Assembly (NCBI GenBank): GCA_024103385.1
Contig: JAGFIT010000022.1
Location: forward strand, 62,001-126,000
Source: Vicingus serpentipes
Lineage (GTDB): Bacteria > Bacteroidota > Bacteroidia > Flavobacteriales_E > Vicingaceae
Direction of reading: 5' to 3'
Length of the DNA: 64,000 nucleotides
Shown: piece by piece, positions 22,030-29,506 of the stretch
How positions within the stretch are numbered: position 1 is the first letter of the stretch
Layout of the letters: the number at the start of each line of letters is the position of its first letter
Made by a program: the position numbers and the translations under genes
Notes under the pieces: model-generated
The model's input: only the letters and a program-made list of their open reading frames with translations
What the model was told of the DNA's origin: nothing
The model's database searches: none

Positions 22030-22041
22030 ATACATAATGCG

Positions 22042-22067
22042 AATAAAGAACACTAGTGTTCTTTATT
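22042..22067. terminator. Perfect 26-bp palindrome after the lipoprotein gene
   Basis: AATAAAGAACACT is followed directly by its exact complement AGTGTTCTTTATT. In RNA the centre opens as a loop and gives a strong hairpin ending in UUUAUU. It marks the left edge of the non-coding flank of the 22-28 kb block. Confidence 0.6.
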
Positions 22068-22208
22068 AGGTTGTTATGTTCAATAGCCGCCAAGACACTT
22101 TAGTACACCTAAACGAGCGACAGAAAAAATAAAATAAAAATGACTGACCTGTTTTCCATAGGACAATTCACGGTTGACAAAGAAGAAAGAAAAAAAAGCC
22201 CTCGCTTC

Positions 22209-22226
22209 GCATTTTTGAAAATTTCT
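22209..22226 (+). repeat. 18-bp inverted flank sequence, left copy
   Basis: The sequence GCATTTTTGAAAATTTCT here is the exact reverse complement of 28084-28101. The two copies enclose the two-component/TDT/FNT gene block and nothing else. Beyond the 18 bases the flanks diverge. Confidence 0.65.
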
Positions 22227-22237
22227 GCAACCACACA

Positions 22238-22302
22238 TTTGGCACATTTGAGGTTGCTCCAACACCACTATACAACACAACTGCAACCTCAAAAGAGCCA
22301 AA
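22238..22302. repeat. Imperfect long hairpin in the left flank
   Basis: TTTGGC-ACA-TTTGAGGTTGC (22238-22257) pairs with GCAACCTCAAA-AGA-GCCAAA (22283-22302): 17 of 20 positions pair, with a central 3-base mismatch and a 25-base loop. The form resembles a folded recombination site or a REP-like unit. Confidence 0.6.
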
Positions 22303-22339
22303 TTCTACCAATCTTAAAAAAATAACCAGTTATGACCTG

Positions 22340-22347
22340 TATATTTG
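22340..22347 (+). promoter_or_regulatory. Candidate -7 box for the two-component genes
   Basis: TATATTTG matches TAnnTTTG and lies 15 bases before the response-regulator ATG. No TTG is found 19-21 bases upstream. Confidence 0.4.
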
Positions 22348-22362
22348 CACTTTAATTAAAGC

Positions 22363-23067
22363 ATGAACACAGAAAAACATAAAATTCTTGTCGTTGAAGA
22401 CGAACCTGATGTATTGCAGTTTATCAAACAGGGCTTGGAAGAGAATGGCTTTGATGTTGACTATGCTTATGACGGCGATTGCGGAAAAAAATTAGCTCTT
22501 TCGAACCATTATGATGTTATTATTCTTGATATTATTATTCCGCAATTAAACGGCATCGAATTATGCAAAAAAATACGCAACCAAAAAAATACAGCAAAAA
22601 TTTTGCTGCTCACAGCCTTAGGCTCTCTTGACGACAAGTTGGAAGGGTTTGAAGCAGGGGCTGACGATTATTTAGTAAAACCTTTTGATTTTCCTGAGTT
22701 GCTTGCTCGAGTGAATGTATTGACAAAAAGAATAACACAAACACCCTATAATACTCCAACTCAAGAACATATTATAAAAGTAGCTGATTTAGCACTCAAC
22801 TTGAACAATAAGCGAGTAAAAAGAGGCGGAAAAGAAATTACTTTAACTGCTAAAGAATTTGCTTTACTCGAATTGCTGGTCCTAAATAAAAACAGAGTAT
22901 TAAGCAAAGCTGAGATTGCCGAAAAAATATGGGACATTAATTTTGACAGAGGTACAAATGTAATTGAGGTATATATCAATTTTCTAAGAAAAAAGATTGA
23001 TAATGATTACTCTGTAAAGCTATTGCATACCATGGTGGGAATGGGTTACATCTTGAAAGACGAATAA
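22363..23067 (+). CDS. OmpR-family response regulator
   Basis: The 234-aa protein has a receiver domain with acidic pocket E12/D13, phospho-acceptor D56 (VIILDIIIP), T84 and K106 (LVKPF), followed by a winged-helix DNA-binding domain (about 135-232, ending HTMVGMGYIL). All key residues are present. It lies 2 bases before the histidine kinase gene. OmpR-type regulators bind direct repeats about 11 bp apart, and such repeats are found ahead of the transporter gene at 24457-24548, so that is its probable target. Confidence 0.9.
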   Translation: MNTEKHKILVVEDEPDVLQFIKQGLEENGFDVDYAYDGDCGKKLALSNHYDVIILDIIIPQLNGIELCKKIRNQKNTAKILLLTALGSLDDKLEGFEAGADDYLVKPFDFPELLARVNVLTKRITQTPYNTPTQEHIIKVADLALNLNNKRVKRGGKEITLTAKEFALLELLVLNKNRVLSKAEIAEKIWDINFDRGTNVIEVYINFLRKKIDNDYSVKLLHTMVGMGYILKDE

Positions 23068-23069
23068 AA

Positions 23070-24437
23070 ATGAAAATCAGAACCCGGTTTACCCTAGTTT
23101 TTGCATTGATTGTAGGTATAATGCTCTCATTCTTTTCTTATGCTATCTTTTACTTATCGGAAGATTACAGGCAGGAAGATTTTCATACACGATTAAAAAG
23201 CAGAGCGATAGAGAAGCTTGAATTGTTGACAAAGGATGACGGAAAAACAAAAGAAATTTTCGCAGACCGGATTAAAGAAAATAATTTGCACGCACTTACC
23301 AATGAACAAATTACTATTTATGACGAGAATAAAAAATCTGTCTATAGCGACAATAGTGTTTCTGCTCCCAATCCTGATTTAATTAAATCTACATCAAAAC
23401 AAAATATCTATTCATGGTCAGAAAAGGGTAGAGAAGGTATAGGTTTCACGCATTCATACAAAGGAAATACATATATACTTTTTATTTCTGCGACTGATAA
23501 ACATGGTACAAGTTATATCAATAACCTAAAAAAAATACTGACCGTAAGGTTATTCATCATTATGCTGATTATTTTTATCAGTGGTTGGCTCTTTGCCGGA
23601 TATTTTATAAGACCGATTATCAATATTGTTAAACAAGCCGATAATATCACTTCCAAAAATCTAAGCTACAGGTTGAAGTCAAGGCATGTGAAGGATGAAA
23701 TCGGGAAATTAACCACCACATTCAATAATATGCTCGATAGATTGGAAACTGCGTTTACCATACAAAAGCGTTTCGTTTCAAATGCTTCCCACGAATTACG
23801 TAATCCACTTACGGCAATTAGCGGACAAATAGACGTGGCTTTAATGAAGGATAGGAAAAAAGAAGAATATCGTGCTACTTTAGAATCGGTTTCAGCACAC
23901 ATTAGAAACTTAAGAATGCTTACCAATAGCTTATTGGAACTGGCAAATAGTGATGTTGATACGCTGTTTCAGAATTTTGATGAAATAAGAATAGATGAGA
24001 TATTATGGAATATGCGTGACGAAATACTAAAACAAAGACCTAACTGCAACATTAATATCAATTTTGAAAAAATTACCGATAATGAAAAAATACTCACCTG
24101 CAAAGGCAAAGCAAAATTATTGGAAACTGCCTTTATTAATATTATTGATAATGCCTGTAAATTTTCAGAAAATAAAACGGTAGAAATTAAAGTGGTGTCG
24201 GAGAAAAAAAATATCATTGTTCTATTTACAGATAAAGGGATTGGGATGCCCGAAACTTATTTGAACCATATTTTTGAACCTTTTTACAGGGGAGATAACA
24301 CGCATGGCATTCCCGGAAAAGGAATTGGTTTATCATTGGTTCGTGGCATTATCAAACTACATTCCGGCAAGATTTTTATTCGGTCTAAAGTAAACGAAGG
24401 CACAACTGTAGAAATAGTGTTGCCGAATTTAAGCTGA
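23070..24437 (+). CDS. Membrane sensor histidine kinase
   Basis: The 455-aa protein has a TM helix (about 7-30), a short periplasmic sensor (about 31-155), a second TM helix (about 158-180), HAMP (about 180-232), a HisKA domain with H241 in SNASHELRNPLTAI, and an HATPase domain with the N box (NIIDNACKFSENK) and G boxes (DKGIGM; GKGIGLSLV). It is complete and should phosphorylate the adjacent regulator. The short periplasmic domain without cysteine or His clusters gives no clue to the ligand. Confidence 0.9.
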   Translation: MKIRTRFTLVFALIVGIMLSFFSYAIFYLSEDYRQEDFHTRLKSRAIEKLELLTKDDGKTKEIFADRIKENNLHALTNEQITIYDENKKSVYSDNSVSAPNPDLIKSTSKQNIYSWSEKGREGIGFTHSYKGNTYILFISATDKHGTSYINNLKKILTVRLFIIMLIIFISGWLFAGYFIRPIINIVKQADNITSKNLSYRLKSRHVKDEIGKLTTTFNNMLDRLETAFTIQKRFVSNASHELRNPLTAISGQIDVALMKDRKKEEYRATLESVSAHIRNLRMLTNSLLELANSDVDTLFQNFDEIRIDEILWNMRDEILKQRPNCNININFEKITDNEKILTCKGKAKLLETAFINIIDNACKFSENKTVEIKVVSEKKNIIVLFTDKGIGMPETYLNHIFEPFYRGDNTHGIPGKGIGLSLVRGIIKLHSGKIFIRSKVNEGTTVEIVLPNLS

Positions 24438-24456
24438 TTTTAATCTTGTTGAACTT

Positions 24457-24548
24457 TTTTAAGTTCATTTTAATTTTACCCTCCCAAAAAGCACCTCGAA
24501 CCCCTCTAAAAATTAATTCTTTTTAATTTCATTCTAACCTCGTTTTAA
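24457..24548 (+). promoter_or_regulatory. 11-bp-periodic direct repeats, likely response-regulator operator
   Basis: TTTTAA at 24521, TTCTAA at 24532 and TTTTAA at 24543 are spaced exactly 11 bp apart, and a second pair TTTTAA at 24457 and 24468 has the same spacing. OmpR/PhoB-type regulators bind such tandem repeats. The cluster ends 40 bases before the transporter ATG at 24589. A hairpin TGAACTT/AAGTTCA (24450-24467) overlaps the first pair and may also end the kinase transcript. Confidence 0.6.
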
Positions 24549-24588
24549 GGTTGTTAGCTGACATTTGCTATTATAAATAAAGCATTTA

Positions 24589-25668
24589 ATGTCAGTTGTT
24601 TTAATAGATAATCTTAAAAATGGAGCGGCTAATTTGTTTCCCGGTTACTTTGCCTTAACAATGGCAACAGGAATCGTTTCTATTGCTGCATTCCTGTTGA
24701 AAATTCCTTTTATACCCGAAGCTCTGCTGTATTTTAATGGTATCGCTTATTGTATATTATGGATATTTCTGTTGGGTAGGTTACTGTTCTATTTCCAAAA
24801 TTTTCTCAAAGATATTTCTAACCATTCCAGAAGCCCCGGTTTTCTGACCATCGTAGCCGGAACAAATGTGCTTGGTGGTCAATTTGCTATCATACAACAA
24901 AATTATCTGATAGCGACCACCCTGTTTTATTTAGGCTTAATACTATGGGTTGTTCTGATCTACTTCTTTTTCATAATGATAACGGTAAAGAGGAACAAAC
25001 CTACACTTGATAACGGCATCAATGGAATATGGCTGCTCATGGTTGTTGCTACACAATCTGTATCCGTTCTGGGAGTGCAGTTGGCTGAATATTTACCCAT
25101 CTCACAGGAAATAACGCTTTTTTTCTCTCTGGTGCTGTTCTTTATAGGATGTATGTTGTACGTAATTATCATTACTTTAATCTTTTATCGCCTTACATTT
25201 TTTGAGCTTAGAGCAGAAGAGTTTGCTCCACCCTACTGGATAAATATGGGAGCTGTTGCTATAACCACACTTGCAGGAGCTTCACTTATCTTGATTGCAA
25301 ATGAATGGCAATTTCTTAATTCATTGCGTCAATTTCTTATCGGCTTTACGCTTTTATTTTGGGGCTTTGGTACATGGTGGATACCCATTATCATCATTCT
25401 CGGTGCATGGCGACATTTTTACCTGCTTATTCCTATTGTTTATCATCCCCAATACTGGGGCATGGTTTTCCCTCTGGGGATGTACACCGTTTGTACCTAC
25501 CGGCTGGCACAGGCAACAGAGCTCAATTTCTTATTTAACATCTCATCGGTATTTATCTATACAGCACTGTTTGCATGGACTGTAACCGCAAGTGGACTAC
25601 TATATGCCGTAATTGGCAACTCTTTTTCAGCAAGAAGAATAAAACCTCTTAAAACCCCAACATCATGA
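24589..25668 (+). CDS. TDT-family (TehA/SLAC1-like) membrane transporter
   Basis: The 359-aa protein has about ten hydrophobic helices and the N-terminal motif [15 protein letters not shown], typical of the tellurite-resistance/dicarboxylate transporter (TDT) family, whose members carry anions or small acids such as sulfite, malate or chloride. The motif [15 protein letters not shown] lies late in the chain. The substrate cannot be set from sequence. It follows the putative operator and overlaps the next start by 4 bases, so it heads the five-gene transport unit. Confidence 0.75.
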
Positions 25669-26177
25669 ACTCAAAAGCAATTACCATAGAGACACTACAA
25701 GCTCCTAATGAATTGGTGAGTAAGTTAAAAGAAATGACGGTTTCAGATTTTGACATGATTCGTCATTCGCCCGATGCCGTTTATTACGGTGATATCACTT
25801 CACACTCCTTTAATATCAGGCATGTGCGATATGGATCAATGAGCCACGCCCCCTACATTCAGGGTGAAATTCTGGAAGGCGTAAACAACCGTACGGTTGT
25901 TAAAGTAGCAATGGACATCAAAGAACCTTATGAGTTAGTTCGTAAAATGTACTTCAGCACCTTATTGCCAATAGGTGTTATTATTATGCTTCTCAGCATA
26001 TTGGTCATGTGGGGTACGGAGTTTCAATGGCAAAGTCTATTGCTATCAAGTTCTTTTATAGTAGTTGCTTTATTGGTGGTTGCATTGGAAAGAGTAACAC
26101 TCATCAGTACGAAAAAGAAAGAACTTGCAGTATTTGTTTCCCGGATTGATGGGCAAATCATCTCAGATTCAGATTAA
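25665..26177 (+). CDS. Two-helix membrane protein, paralogue 1, unknown function
   Basis: The 170-aa protein has no signal peptide. The soluble N-terminal part (about 1-90) holds the motif [17 protein letters not shown] and YIQGEI; two helices follow (about 100-120 and 125-145) and a short basic tail with STKKKEL. It overlaps the TDT gene by 4 bases and is paralogous to the next gene (shared YYG-I-F-IR-V-Y, P-IQGE and STKK-EL positions). It probably partners one of the transporters. I recognise no characterised family. Confidence 0.6.
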
Positions 26178-26226
26178 ATAACCGCCTGAAAGTGAACTTA
26201 TAATCAAATTATTAAACAGTAGAACT

Positions 26227-26727
26227 ATGAAAACAAAAGAATCAAAAATATTCATGGCACAATCTAACCTGCCTGTTTCAAAATTAATTAACAAACTTCA
26301 TCAAGTTACTGCCGAAGAATTTGATGTTGCTAAAAAGAGCAATGTATTTCAATATTATGGTAAAATAAACCATCGGGAATTTGATATCCGTAATGTAAAA
26401 TACAGCCATTATAGCACGGGACCATCAATTCAGGGAGAATTGGATGACATTACAGATAATAATACTTTGTTGAAAATTAATATCGATACTGATGAACACA
26501 GCAGTTATTCGAATACTATTTTGACATTAACCATTTTGGTTATTGCTATTGCTGCCACTTTATTTTCTCTCTCGGCAGAGGTCGATAAGTTTATTGTGCT
26601 TTCTGTTTTTGGCGTGATGGCAATTTTTGCTTCGCTCTATGTAATGTTGATAAAAATCATACTGAAATCCACCAAGAAAAACGAATTAAAAAAGTTTTTG
26701 GAAATCACTGAAAGTAAATTAATCTAA
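26227..26727 (+). CDS. Two-helix membrane protein, paralogue 2, unknown function
   Basis: The 166-aa protein aligns along its whole length with the gene before it: YYGKINHREFDIRNVKY, SIQGEL, two hydrophobic helices (about 97-117 and 122-143) and STKKNELKKF. It starts 49 bases after paralogue 1. The soluble part is more charged. A tandem duplication followed by divergence is the likely origin, and the pair may form a heterodimer. The role is unknown. Confidence 0.6.
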   Translation: MKTKESKIFMAQSNLPVSKLINKLHQVTAEEFDVAKKSNVFQYYGKINHREFDIRNVKYSHYSTGPSIQGELDDITDNNTLLKINIDTDEHSSYSNTILTLTILVIAIAATLFSLSAEVDKFIVLSVFGVMAIFASLYVMLIKIILKSTKKNELKKFLEITESKLI

Positions 26728-26734
26728 CCACATT

Positions 26735-27160
26735 ATGGAACAAAACACCTGCATTCAGTGCAAAAACACCAATTGTCTTTTCAAATTTAGCCTTAGTCAA
26801 TCTCCAAAGGTGATTGAAAATTTCAATATTGAAAGTGAACTAAATGTTTACCTTGAAGATATGCCTGTTCAAGGACTGTACGTTGTTCAAAGCGGCAGCA
26901 TCCAAGAATATTTTATCAATAGGAAAGGACGTAAAGAAATAAGCAACTCGGTAAAAACCGGTGAAATTTTCGGGCACAAAGATTTTAATGCCACAAAGCA
27001 TTTATTTAGTGCCGTTGCTATTGAAAAATCTTCAATTTGTCTGATTGATAAAAGTACCCTGATGGAGGCTTGTAAAATCAACCCTGAACTATCAATAAAA
27101 CTGATATATTTCTTTTCTGATGAATTGAATAAATCAGACAAAAAATATTCAATCATATAG
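26735..27160 (+). CDS. FNR/CRP-like sensor domain without a DNA-binding domain
   Basis: The 141-aa protein has an N-terminal Cys cluster C6-x2-C9-x4-C14 (CIQCKNTNC), like the Fe-S ligand region of FNR, and a cyclic-nucleotide-binding-like beta roll (about 25-125; VVQSGSIQEYF and GEIFG). CRP/FNR proteins are about 220-240 aa with a C-terminal helix-turn-helix; here the chain ends after the dimer-helix region. No HTH is found in any frame before the next gene, which starts 6 bases after the stop. It may sense oxygen, NO or redox state and act by protein contact. A further Cys (SSICLID) could be the fourth ligand. Confidence 0.65.
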   Translation: MEQNTCIQCKNTNCLFKFSLSQSPKVIENFNIESELNVYLEDMPVQGLYVVQSGSIQEYFINRKGRKEISNSVKTGEIFGHKDFNATKHLFSAVAIEKSSICLIDKSTLMEACKINPELSIKLIYFFSDELNKSDKKYSII

Positions 27161-27166
27161 AAAAGA

Positions 27167-27991
27167 ATGGATAATATAAAACCGGACAAAATTGTAGCAG
27201 ACCTTGTTGAATCAGGTGCATACAAATCAAAATTAACGACAAAACACATTTTAATTCGTGGCTTCTTATCAGGTGCTTTACTTGGATTTGCAACTGTTCT
27301 GGCATTCATTACTGCGAATCAAACAGGGATAGGAGTGCTTGGAGCATTGGCATTTCCAGTTGGGTTTGTCATGATTATTTTATTGGGGTTGGAACTGGTA
27401 ACAGGAAACTTTGCAACTATTCCAATGGCAGTTATGGGGCGTAAAACGTCTATCAAAAATCTTTTTTACAACTGGACATTTGCCTTTACCGGAAACCTGA
27501 TTGGCAGCGTATTTTTTGGAGCTTTATTTTTTATTGTAGCCACCAAATTCGGTCATTATTATGATACCGATATTGCTAAAAAAATTACTGACATTGCCAT
27601 AAGTAAAACGCTTGCCTATAAAGAATTAGGAGGCGAGGGTGTTGTTGTTTGTTTCGTTAAAGCCATGCTTTGCAACTGGATGGTAACATTAGGTGTAGTA
27701 ATGGGATTGGTGTCTTCATCCACATCCGGTAAAATCTTCGCTATCTGGCTTCCGATATTTACCTTTTTCGCGCTTGGATTAGAACACTGCGTTGTAAATA
27801 TGTTCGTAATGCCAACAGCCATAATGCTTGATGCACCCATTACTGTTACTGATTGGTGGCTCTGGAATCAAATCCCTGCGACAATAGGGAATATTGTTGG
27901 TGGGTTTTTCTTCACAGGAGTATTACTTTACTTAACTCACTACAAAAAGGAAATACCAGATGAAAATCTCCAATCAGAACAAATAGATTAA
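27167..27991 (+). CDS. Formate/nitrite transporter family channel (FocA/NirC-like)
   Basis: The 274-aa protein has about six helices and family motifs: RGFLSGALLGFA, LVTGNFATIP, NLIGSVFFGALFF, CNWMVTLGVVMG and the channel motif LGLEHCVVNMF with the central His. FNT pentamers move formate, nitrite or hydrosulfide coupled to protons. Being next to an FNR-like Cys-cluster protein suggests anaerobic or nitrite-related use. It is the last gene of the block. No formate lyase or nitrite reductase gene is nearby. Confidence 0.85.
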   Translation: MDNIKPDKIVADLVESGAYKSKLTTKHILIRGFLSGALLGFATVLAFITANQTGIGVLGALAFPVGFVMIILLGLELVTGNFATIPMAVMGRKTSIKNLFYNWTFAFTGNLIGSVFFGALFFIVATKFGHYYDTDIAKKITDIAISKTLAYKELGGEGVVVCFVKAMLCNWMVTLGVVMGLVSSSTSGKIFAIWLPIFTFFALGLEHCVVNMFVMPTAIMLDAPITVTDWWLWNQIPATIGNIVGGFFFTGVLLYLTHYKKEIPDENLQSEQID

Positions 27992-28006
27992 TGCCAACAC
28001 AACAGT

Positions 28007-28065
28007 CACACACATTGGCTGGCTGCTCAATGCTACCCTCCGACCAAAGCCAGTCAAAGAGTGTG
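28007..28065. repeat. Imperfect hairpin 1 in the right flank
   Basis: The 18-base left arm (28007-28024, CACACACATTGGCTGGCT) pairs with 28048-28065 at 15 of 18 positions, leaving a 23-base loop. It is similar in plan to the hairpin in the left flank: arms of about 20 bp with about three mismatches. Confidence 0.6.
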
Positions 28066-28083
28066 CCTGCCTAGCCCGGAAAA

Positions 28084-28101
28084 AGAAATTTTCAAAAATG
28101 C
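28084..28101 (-). repeat. 18-bp inverted flank sequence, right copy
   Basis: Exact reverse complement of 22209-22226. It lies 93 bases after the formate/nitrite channel gene. Confidence 0.65.
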
Positions 28102-28165
28102 CCTACGCACGACTAAAAAAAGGACAAAGTGCTATAAGGAAACATTGGGGAAGGCGGCTACTCAA

Positions 28166-28297
28166 ACATAACATGGGCTAAAAGCAAGTGGGCGGAAAGT
28201 GCTAAATGAAACTTCCTTGCTTTTTATTTATTTTTGTGGTGGTGGACAGGAAAGTACTTTTTAATGCCCACCAGCTTTTAGCCCAAGCCCGTTAAGC
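28166..28297 (+). repeat. attC-like imperfect palindrome ahead of the caspase-like gene
   Basis: GGGCTAAAAGC-AA-GTGGGC (28175-28193) pairs with GCCCAC-CA-GCTTTTAGCCC (28266-28284). Outside it, ACATAAC (28166-28172) faces GTTAAGC (28291-28297). GTTAAGC fits the integron R' box GTTRRRY, while ACATAAC misses one position of RYYYAAC. The loop carries TATTTTTG, a -7-like box. The next ATG is 12 bases downstream, as in a gene cassette. No integrase is seen, so this is resemblance only. Confidence 0.45.
28229..28236 (+). promoter_or_regulatory. Candidate -7 box inside the palindrome loop
   Basis: TATTTTTG fits TAnnTTTG and would direct transcription to the caspase-like gene at 28310 with a leader of about 65 bases containing one hairpin arm. 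No -33 box is clear. Confidence 0.35.
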
Positions 28298-28309
28298 GAC
28301 CAACAAAAA

Positions 28310-29506
28310 ATGAAAAAAACAATATTACTCCTGCTGCTACTAATTTCGGTCTTTGTACAAAGCCAGAACATTTATGTTTACAGAAATAAAAATTTTGGAG
28401 GGTCTTTACAAAAATTAAAGGTGTTTATAAATGAATTACAAATTGGCACTTTATCCATTGGAGAAATTTTACCCTACAAAATAGCCGCCAATGGCGTTTA
28501 TCAGCTCCGCATCAATACATTTGCTATTTCTGGCAACAAAAGTACGACCGTAGATGCACGAACTGATAAGAACTATTACTTTGAAACCGGATTTCGTACA
28601 ATGGGTGGGTTATATCTTAAACCAATCACTTACGAAGAATTACCTGATGATATTAAACCCCAAATTATTACCGGAAACAATACCCCAATTACTGGGCTCC
28701 CCGACACAAAGCAAAGTACCCCTACTGAAACTATTCGTGTAAAACCCCAAGAAAATGTAGCTCCTAATAACACCATTCCAGATAAAGAGCCATTTAGTAA
28801 TACCGGAAAATATTACGCCCTAATTATTGGAAATAATGATTACCACGACCCTGCTATTAGCTCCTTGGATGAACCCATTAAAGACGCAACTAAACTATTT
28901 AATGTGCTCACCACTCAATATACATTTGATGTAAATAATGTCATCTTTCTAAAAAATGCCTCCTACGTTAAAATGATTGAAGCTTTTGATAATCTGAGTG
29001 AAAATATTACTCCCAACGATAATTTATTGGTTTTTTATGCCGGTCACGGTTGGTGGGATGAAGACAAAAATTTAGGTTACTGGTTACCAACAGATGCCAA
29101 AAAAAGCAACACCGCATTTTGGATTGCCAACAGTAGAATTAGTGACTACATGAGTAGTATCCATTCCAAACACACCCTGCTAATTGCAGATGCTTGCTTT
29201 AGTGGAAGTATTTTTAAAACACGTAGCGCATTTGCAGATGCACAACCAGCAATAAATAAACTTTATGATTTGCCTAGTAAAAAAGCCATGACCAGTGGAA
29301 ATTTAAAAGAAGTGCCTGATAAAAGTGTGTTTCTTCAGTTCTTGGTAAAAAGATTGGCCGATAATACCGATAAATACATTTCATCGGATGTGCTTTTTTC
29401 GAGTTTTCGCCAAGCTGTTTTAAATAACAGCCCCACAGAACCTCAATATGGCACCATACAAAATGCAGGAGATGAAGGTGGTGAATTTATTTTTATTCGG
29501 AAATAA
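28310..29506 (+). CDS. Secreted caspase-like (peptidase C14) protein with DUF2846-like N-terminus
   Basis: The 398-aa product has a signal peptide ending SQ, a DUF2846-like beta domain (about 20-105; NIYVYRNKNFGG, ANGVYQLRI), a linker rich in P, T and N (about 118-165), and a caspase-fold domain (about 166-398). The fold is marked by KYYALIIGNNDY, catalytic H246 in FYAGHGWWD and C296 in ADACFSGSIF, so the His-Cys dyad is intact. Exported caspase-like proteins are not likely to be death effectors; a processing or stress role in the periplasm is possible. It starts 12 bases after the palindrome. Confidence 0.8.
   Translation: MKKTILLLLLLISVFVQSQNIYVYRNKNFGGSLQKLKVFINELQIGTLSIGEILPYKIAANGVYQLRINTFAISGNKSTTVDARTDKNYYFETGFRTMGGLYLKPITYEELPDDIKPQIITGNNTPITGLPDTKQSTPTETIRVKPQENVAPNNTIPDKEPFSNTGKYYALIIGNNDYHDPAISSLDEPIKDATKLFNVLTTQYTFDVNNVIFLKNASYVKMIEAFDNLSENITPNDNLLVFYAGHGWWDEDKNLGYWLPTDAKKSNTAFWIANSRISDYMSSIHSKHTLLIADACFSGSIFKTRSAFADAQPAINKLYDLPSKKAMTSGNLKEVPDKSVFLQFLVKRLADNTDKYISSDVLFSSFRQAVLNNSPTEPQYGTIQNAGDEGGEFIFIRK

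Follow-up and report, generated by a model that had tools for sequence, protein, structure and literature searches.

Integrons, sedentary chromosomal integrons and CALINs (IntI, attI, attC cassettes) are the described systems closest to the locus reported here. In the 'reverse' integrons of the Treponema type, IntI is present and the recombinase gene is transcribed in the direction of the array. The hairpins of IS200/IS605 and REP elements are subterminal and imperfect, with the same strand polarity at both ends. IntI carries a specific insertion that is essential for integron function (PMC8138268) and is treated as defining for the enzyme (PMC9668308). For Bacteroidetes, IntegronFinder 2.0 recorded a single complete integron and otherwise only In0 elements (PMC9024848), and a taxon-specific set of attC models names no Bacteroidetes taxon (PMC8352920).

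The window, the whole 64,000-nucleotide stretch of Vicingus serpentipes DNA that was analysed, contains a seven-gene block, with a two-component system and TDT and FNT transporters, that we consider very probably to be a single gene cassette of 6.2 kb, belonging to an integron-like system of Bacteroidia and residing in a genome without the recombinase (Table 1). The initial annotation had described the inverted 18-mer pair around this block, and the pair is indeed an exact reverse complement at the coordinates given, just as the limits of the block (22363-27991) and its seven genes are correct. Chance was rightly thought unlikely, as the longest inverted match between the flanks is 18 nt and 300 mononucleotide shuffles of the flanks reached at most 12. 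There is support for movement of the block as a unit: the upstream gene occurs without it in genomes of the same genus, and the 18-mer pair also flanks a related block in a different genus of the family and, elsewhere, cargo that is unrelated. The unit as then drawn was too small, however, and insertion between two elements of one palindromic family finds no support: the 18-mer and the hairpins lie within the ends of a cassette, as inner modules, and its true limits are a G^TT start (22073/22074) and an attC-like site. Imperfect hairpins with arms of about 20 bp had been reported in both flanks; those beside the 18-mers are real, whereas the 20-bp-arm hairpin at 28174-28285 is of a different type and belongs to the attC-like site.

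Table 1. Parts of the predicted cassette and its cargo, in window coordinates.
Feature	Position	Strand	Remarks
Cassette unit	22074-28291		6,218 bp; G^TT start to predicted attC-like cut
Host palindrome GAATAAAGAACACTAGTGTTCTTTATT	22041-22067	.	directly before insertion point; attI-like or preferred target
Cassette 5' end G^TTATGTTCAATAGCCGCC	22073-22091	+	starts 22074; own R' half; complementary to R'' 28153-28172
Left outer spacer	22092-22208	+	homologous among 18-mer-core cassettes; 15 left ends aligned, L140 homology
Left core, 18-mer GCATTTTTGAAAATTTCT	22209-22226	+	
Left hairpin, ACAT/AAGA internal loop	22238-22302	+	
OmpR-type response regulator	22363-23067	+	Pfam PF00072, PF00486
Sensor histidine kinase	23070-24437	+	Pfam PF02518, PF00512, PF00672
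TDT/SLAC1-family transporter	24589-25668	+	Pfam PF03595
Protein without family match	25665-26177	+	
Paralogue of the 25665-26177 protein	26227-26727	+	30% identity
Cyclic-nucleotide-binding-domain (Crp-like) protein	26735-27160	+	Pfam PF00027
Formate/nitrite transporter	27167-27991	+	Pfam PF01226
Right hairpin, ACAT/AAGA internal loop	28006-28066	+	
Right core, inverted 18-mer	28084-28101	-	
Right outer spacer	28102-28164	+	13 right ends aligned
Extended R'' arm GGCGGCTACTCAAACATAAC	28153-28172	+	complementary to cassette start
attC-like site, 134 nt	28165-28298	+	covariance model R1, 114 bits, E 3e-26
Predicted cut G^TT in attC-like site			cassette ends 28291

The two paralogous proteins (166-170 aa) have no Pfam or NCBIfam match and accompany TDT/FNT transporters in relatives. 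Directly downstream of the cassette, and outside it, lies a caspase-like (Peptidase_C14) protein at 28310-29506.

The ends of the unit are best seen against a cassette of Bacteroidetes bacterium HLUCCA01 (L140), with which homology begins exactly at G^TT. The window cassette starts with GTTATGTT and has the R'' arm AACATAAC, the other starts with GTTGTGTT and has AACACAAC, and the difference at one end is compensated at the other, 5-6 kb away. Taken with the attC-like site, this start of homology and this compensation delimit the unit as 22074-28291. Its first bases, G^TTATGTT, are complementary to the R'' arm of its own attC-like site, and since the cassette ends in such a site and begins with its own R' half, the cut is placed at G^TT, as in integrons. 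Across 11 cassettes the AAC...GTT of the outer palindrome is invariant and 17 of 22 pairs show two-sided changes, with a covariation score of 0.65 (0.195 when shuffled) and 63 compensated cells (23 when shuffled, 0/500); five rows of the alignment (A1) used the cassette's own start as R', which touches the outer helix only. Within the stem of the attC-like sites, A lies opposite C almost invariably (85/86 and 84/86 sites), and the inner helix holds about 53 A.C oppositions against 23 G.T. On the bottom strand such oppositions are T.G wobbles, so that both the fixed opposition and the excess fit a bottom strand that would fold. No clean empty site was found in genomes of the same genus (lipoprotein gene in 13 of 14) because the order of downstream genes differs among them, and no empty site joining the exact predicted cassette ends was found either.

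Sites of this kind are widespread. A covariance-model search, used in place of a home-made attC detector that returned many false sites, found attC-like sites in all 15 genomes first tried, and arrays of them in 61 of 90 sampled Bacteroidia (68%). In 28 mapped loci with 98 sites, all sites of an array lie on one strand, weak antisense matches of the same palindromes being excluded from this set. Among 65 consecutive cassettes, the start agrees with the cassette's own R'' at an average of 4.86 of the six positions beyond GTT (2.25 expected, sd 0.16), and at all six in 40; swapped pairs reach 6/6 in 1.1% of cases. The match follows the cassette rule of integrons, by which the R' half travels with the cassette.

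Arrays are headed by a tyrosine recombinase, mostly of 370-390 aa, that scores near the cut-off of NF040815 (XerA-like) and below that for integron integrases. It aligns end to end with XerA, and the catalytic Arg, Lys, His-x-x-Arg, His and Tyr are invariant. Between aligned blocks it has 28 residues, compared with 71 in IntI (2a3v), and the IntI-specific insertion is therefore absent. Among the 90 Bacteroidia, 49 have the recombinase and 61 have sites, 44 having both, five the recombinase without sites and 24 neither (p=1.1e-6). On 10 of 13 contigs that carry both, the site closest to the recombinase lies downstream of it on the same strand, and the first cassettes begin at G^TT after the recombinase (L078, L103, G427 C11). 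Arrays with the recombinase at their head also occur at G036 C10, G427 C11 and C33, G429 C133, L078 and L103. The XerA-like enzyme is probably the recombinase of the cassettes. The site closest to it lies on the other strand in Thermophagus (L104), G085 and G124, and four other recombinase loci (L211-L214, two at contig ends) yielded no attC-like site. A search of the window genome at E 1e-60 did not find the recombinase, so the cassette was inserted in trans or before the recombinase was lost. A separate observation comes from a Bacteroidetes MAG, in which an apparently frame-damaged gene (L181, G433 C14:7558-8301) matches the integron-integrase model continuously over positions 1-244; it is possibly a true IntI remnant.

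In the genus of the window, a repeated palindrome appears to take the place of attI, with no recombinase nearby. Copies of GAATAAAGAACACTAGTGTTCTTTATT precede cassettes on two other contigs of the window genome (G000 C72 and C1) and head a four-site array in a genome of the same genus (G002 C18); the palindrome occurs in 4 of 14 genomes of the genus, and its reversed control in none. From its position, this host palindrome appears to act like attI or as a preferred target. Further copies in the window genome (C74:5161, C38:41837 and C23:7848) have no detectable attC-like site nearby, and are possibly empty or decayed sites.

Only two others among 46 genomes of the family carry the 18-mer, both as an inverted pair: in G033 the pair encloses a related block made up of the same types of gene, and in G021 it encloses 17 kb of heavy-metal genes. 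Further pairs and lone ends came from a genome-wide scan, among others in Psychroflexus, Membranihabitans, Cyclobacterium, Anaerophaga and Thermophagus. Of the 84 matches in genome contigs, about two thirds are unrelated (chance, repeat or coding). When 15 left and 13 right ends are aligned, conservation extends on both sides of the 18-mer, outward to the palindrome and inward through the hairpin, whose stems change with compensation around a fixed ACAT/AAGA internal loop. The 18-mer is therefore not the terminus of the unit. Plasmid and phage collections held no ends similar to those of the cassette, viral contigs gave three 18-mer matches without the end structure, and Rfam had no match to the cassette ends or the attC-like site. 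The cassettes of Thermophagus (L104), Cyclobacterium (L087) and Membranihabitans (L101) share their inner right end, but in that of Thermophagus the outer spacer and the attC-like site are of the G021 type; the change falls within some 25 bp on the outer side of the core and looks like an exchange between inner and outer parts. Elsewhere, the 18-mer recurs many times in a dispersed repeat of Fictibacillus gelatini (L086-L136, Bacillota), without the end structure, and in another dispersed intergenic repeat (AACTATTCAGAGCCAAGGCA...) of Roseburia and Lachnospiraceae (L090, L111, L133, L135, L144) that is unrelated to cassettes.

The inner modules follow cassette size. Of 50 cassettes passing the start/R'' comparison (at least 4/6), the window's included, the left ACAT/AAGA hairpin is present in all 16 of at least 3.9 kb and absent from all 34 of at most 3.72 kb, a threshold noticed in the same data that report it, from nine genomes with partly related cassettes. 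The right hairpin is present in 15 of the 16, and the sixteenth, L140, has a variant right end. A scan for the hairpin motif gave 38 matches, all on the array strand, and eight control loop pairs gave none. AT-rich cores usually adjoin the hairpins of large cassettes, and there are at least five distinct core sequences (GCATTTTTGAAAATTTCT; ATTTTAAAAAATAATTTT; ATTTTTTAAAAACAATTTT; ATTTTTGCTGCAT; GGAAAAATTTT). Within a cassette the right core is an inverted copy of the left, with a mean match of 15.3 nt to its own partner against 9.0 when partners are swapped; cores thus stay complementary while their sequence varies between cassettes. Exceptions are G033 C19 25289, which has the hairpins and no clear core pair, and L258, with a core match of only 9 nt. 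Large cassettes reach about 17 kb and hold 1-12 predicted genes, at least two in all but one, with cargo that includes DISARM, type IIG restriction, TmtA, Vsr with a cytosine methylase, and copper and heavy-metal genes.

These observations bear on several other explanations of the locus. It is scarcely credible that the 18-mer pair is a product of chance or an ordinary repeated motif: one of the three copies in the window genome is a coincidental match inside a rimO-like coding frame (AFLKIS), unrelated to the cassette, yet the shuffles, the paired occurrence and the compensated change of the cores have already refuted this reading. The pair might instead be the terminal inverted repeat of a transposon, of DDE type or another, or of a non-autonomous relative carrying the seven genes, as its convergent orientation and the different cargos in different genera could suggest. 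In nearly every copy, however, sequence is conserved outside the 18-mer on both sides for 100-200 bp up to the attC-like site, the cargo has no transposase and the core varies from cassette to cassette, all of which makes a transposon very improbable; the specific case of a DDE element ending at the inverted repeat, with a target duplication, was rejected because conservation runs on past the 18-mer on either side. An integron-like cassette could also belong to a classical integron or CALIN whose IntI was missed, with the XerA-like recombinase as a bystander. The attC logic is the same, 17 of the 61 site-bearing genomes have no such recombinase, and reviews place Bacteroidota among the integron phyla (PMC8618304). 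We nevertheless regard this as unlikely, given that an intI with the IntI-specific insertion (TIGR02249, above the cut-off of 265 bits) was found in none of 20 genomes, and that the XerA-like recombinase co-occurs with the sites and stands at the heads of arrays.

The role of the inner modules is more finely balanced. In the mechanism that we propose, the recombinase would cut the folded bottom strand at G^TT, while the complementary cores and the R'/R'' halves would pair in the single-stranded cassette and hold the ends of a long cassette together, which could let it be excised, circularised or inserted; the hairpins would be recognised by the recombinase or a helper protein. We see about an even chance that the cores do pair the ends in DNA. 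The main alternative for this step is pairing in mRNA: cores and hairpins may be 5' and 3' untranslated RNA elements (stability, translation or termination) with no part in recombination, in a cassette that is still integron-like. Genes of large cassettes do lie on the strand of the site (33302 aa against 309 aa opposite), the left hairpin precedes the first gene and the right one follows the last stop, and among wobbles in the hairpin stems G.T slightly exceeds A.C (10 against 4). Complementarity across 4-17 kb would, on the other hand, be an unusual RNA design, which also leaves unexplained why these modules are limited to cassettes above 3.9 kb, why the cores are flanked by outer spacers that are homologous, and why small cassettes with one to three genes lack both cores and hairpins. 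An RNA role is a substantial possibility, if the less probable one. Pairing in DNA would form part of a wider model, in which Bacteroidia have an integron of their own, with an XerA-derived recombinase that lacks the IntI insertion and two tiers of cassettes, those above about 4 kb needing paired cores and ACAT/AAGA hairpins to move; this model could as readily prove wrong as right.

Integrons are all but absent from Bacteroidetes in IntI-based surveys, yet attC-like sites occur in 68% of the 90 Bacteroidia sampled. If the system works, it would be a major hidden route of gene exchange in the phylum, with a traffic that includes anti-phage systems (DISARM, type IIG restriction, TmtA), metal resistance and transport operons, and if the two-tier design is true, whole operons such as DISARM and metal resistance would travel as single cassettes. 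The system also offers a natural test of how a Xer-like enzyme could work on single-stranded, folded sites when it lacks the IntI insertion, and the complementary ends of its large operon cassettes pose a puzzle at the level of mechanism. We found no description of a Bacteroidia cassette system in the literature searched, the scope of which leaves out preprints and most subscription papers, and an earlier description is possible.

With integrons, sedentary chromosomal integrons and CALINs the cassettes share the palindromic site with invariant AAC/GTT, the G^TT junction, the R' at the cassette start, arrays on one strand with a tyrosine recombinase at the head, a structure that may favour the bottom strand and a very varied cargo. 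They differ in their XerA-like recombinase, which lacks the IntI-specific insertion and is transcribed towards the array, in sites of about 134 nt with a conserved central loop, in many multi-gene cassettes, some as long as about 17 kb, whose end modules are complementary, and in being widespread in Bacteroidia. The direction of recombinase transcription is that of the Treponema-type 'reverse' integrons, which differ by having IntI. XerA, XerC and XerD (NF040815; PDB 5hxy, 4a8e) align end to end with the recombinase over the core-binding and catalytic domains, whereas most of the enzymes described here bear an N-terminal extension of about 90 residues and are associated with cassette arrays. 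The layout of the hairpins, finally, resembles that of IS200/IS605 and REP elements, but here the cargo has no Y1 transposase and the hairpin-bearing ends are nested inside a unit bounded by attC-like sequence.
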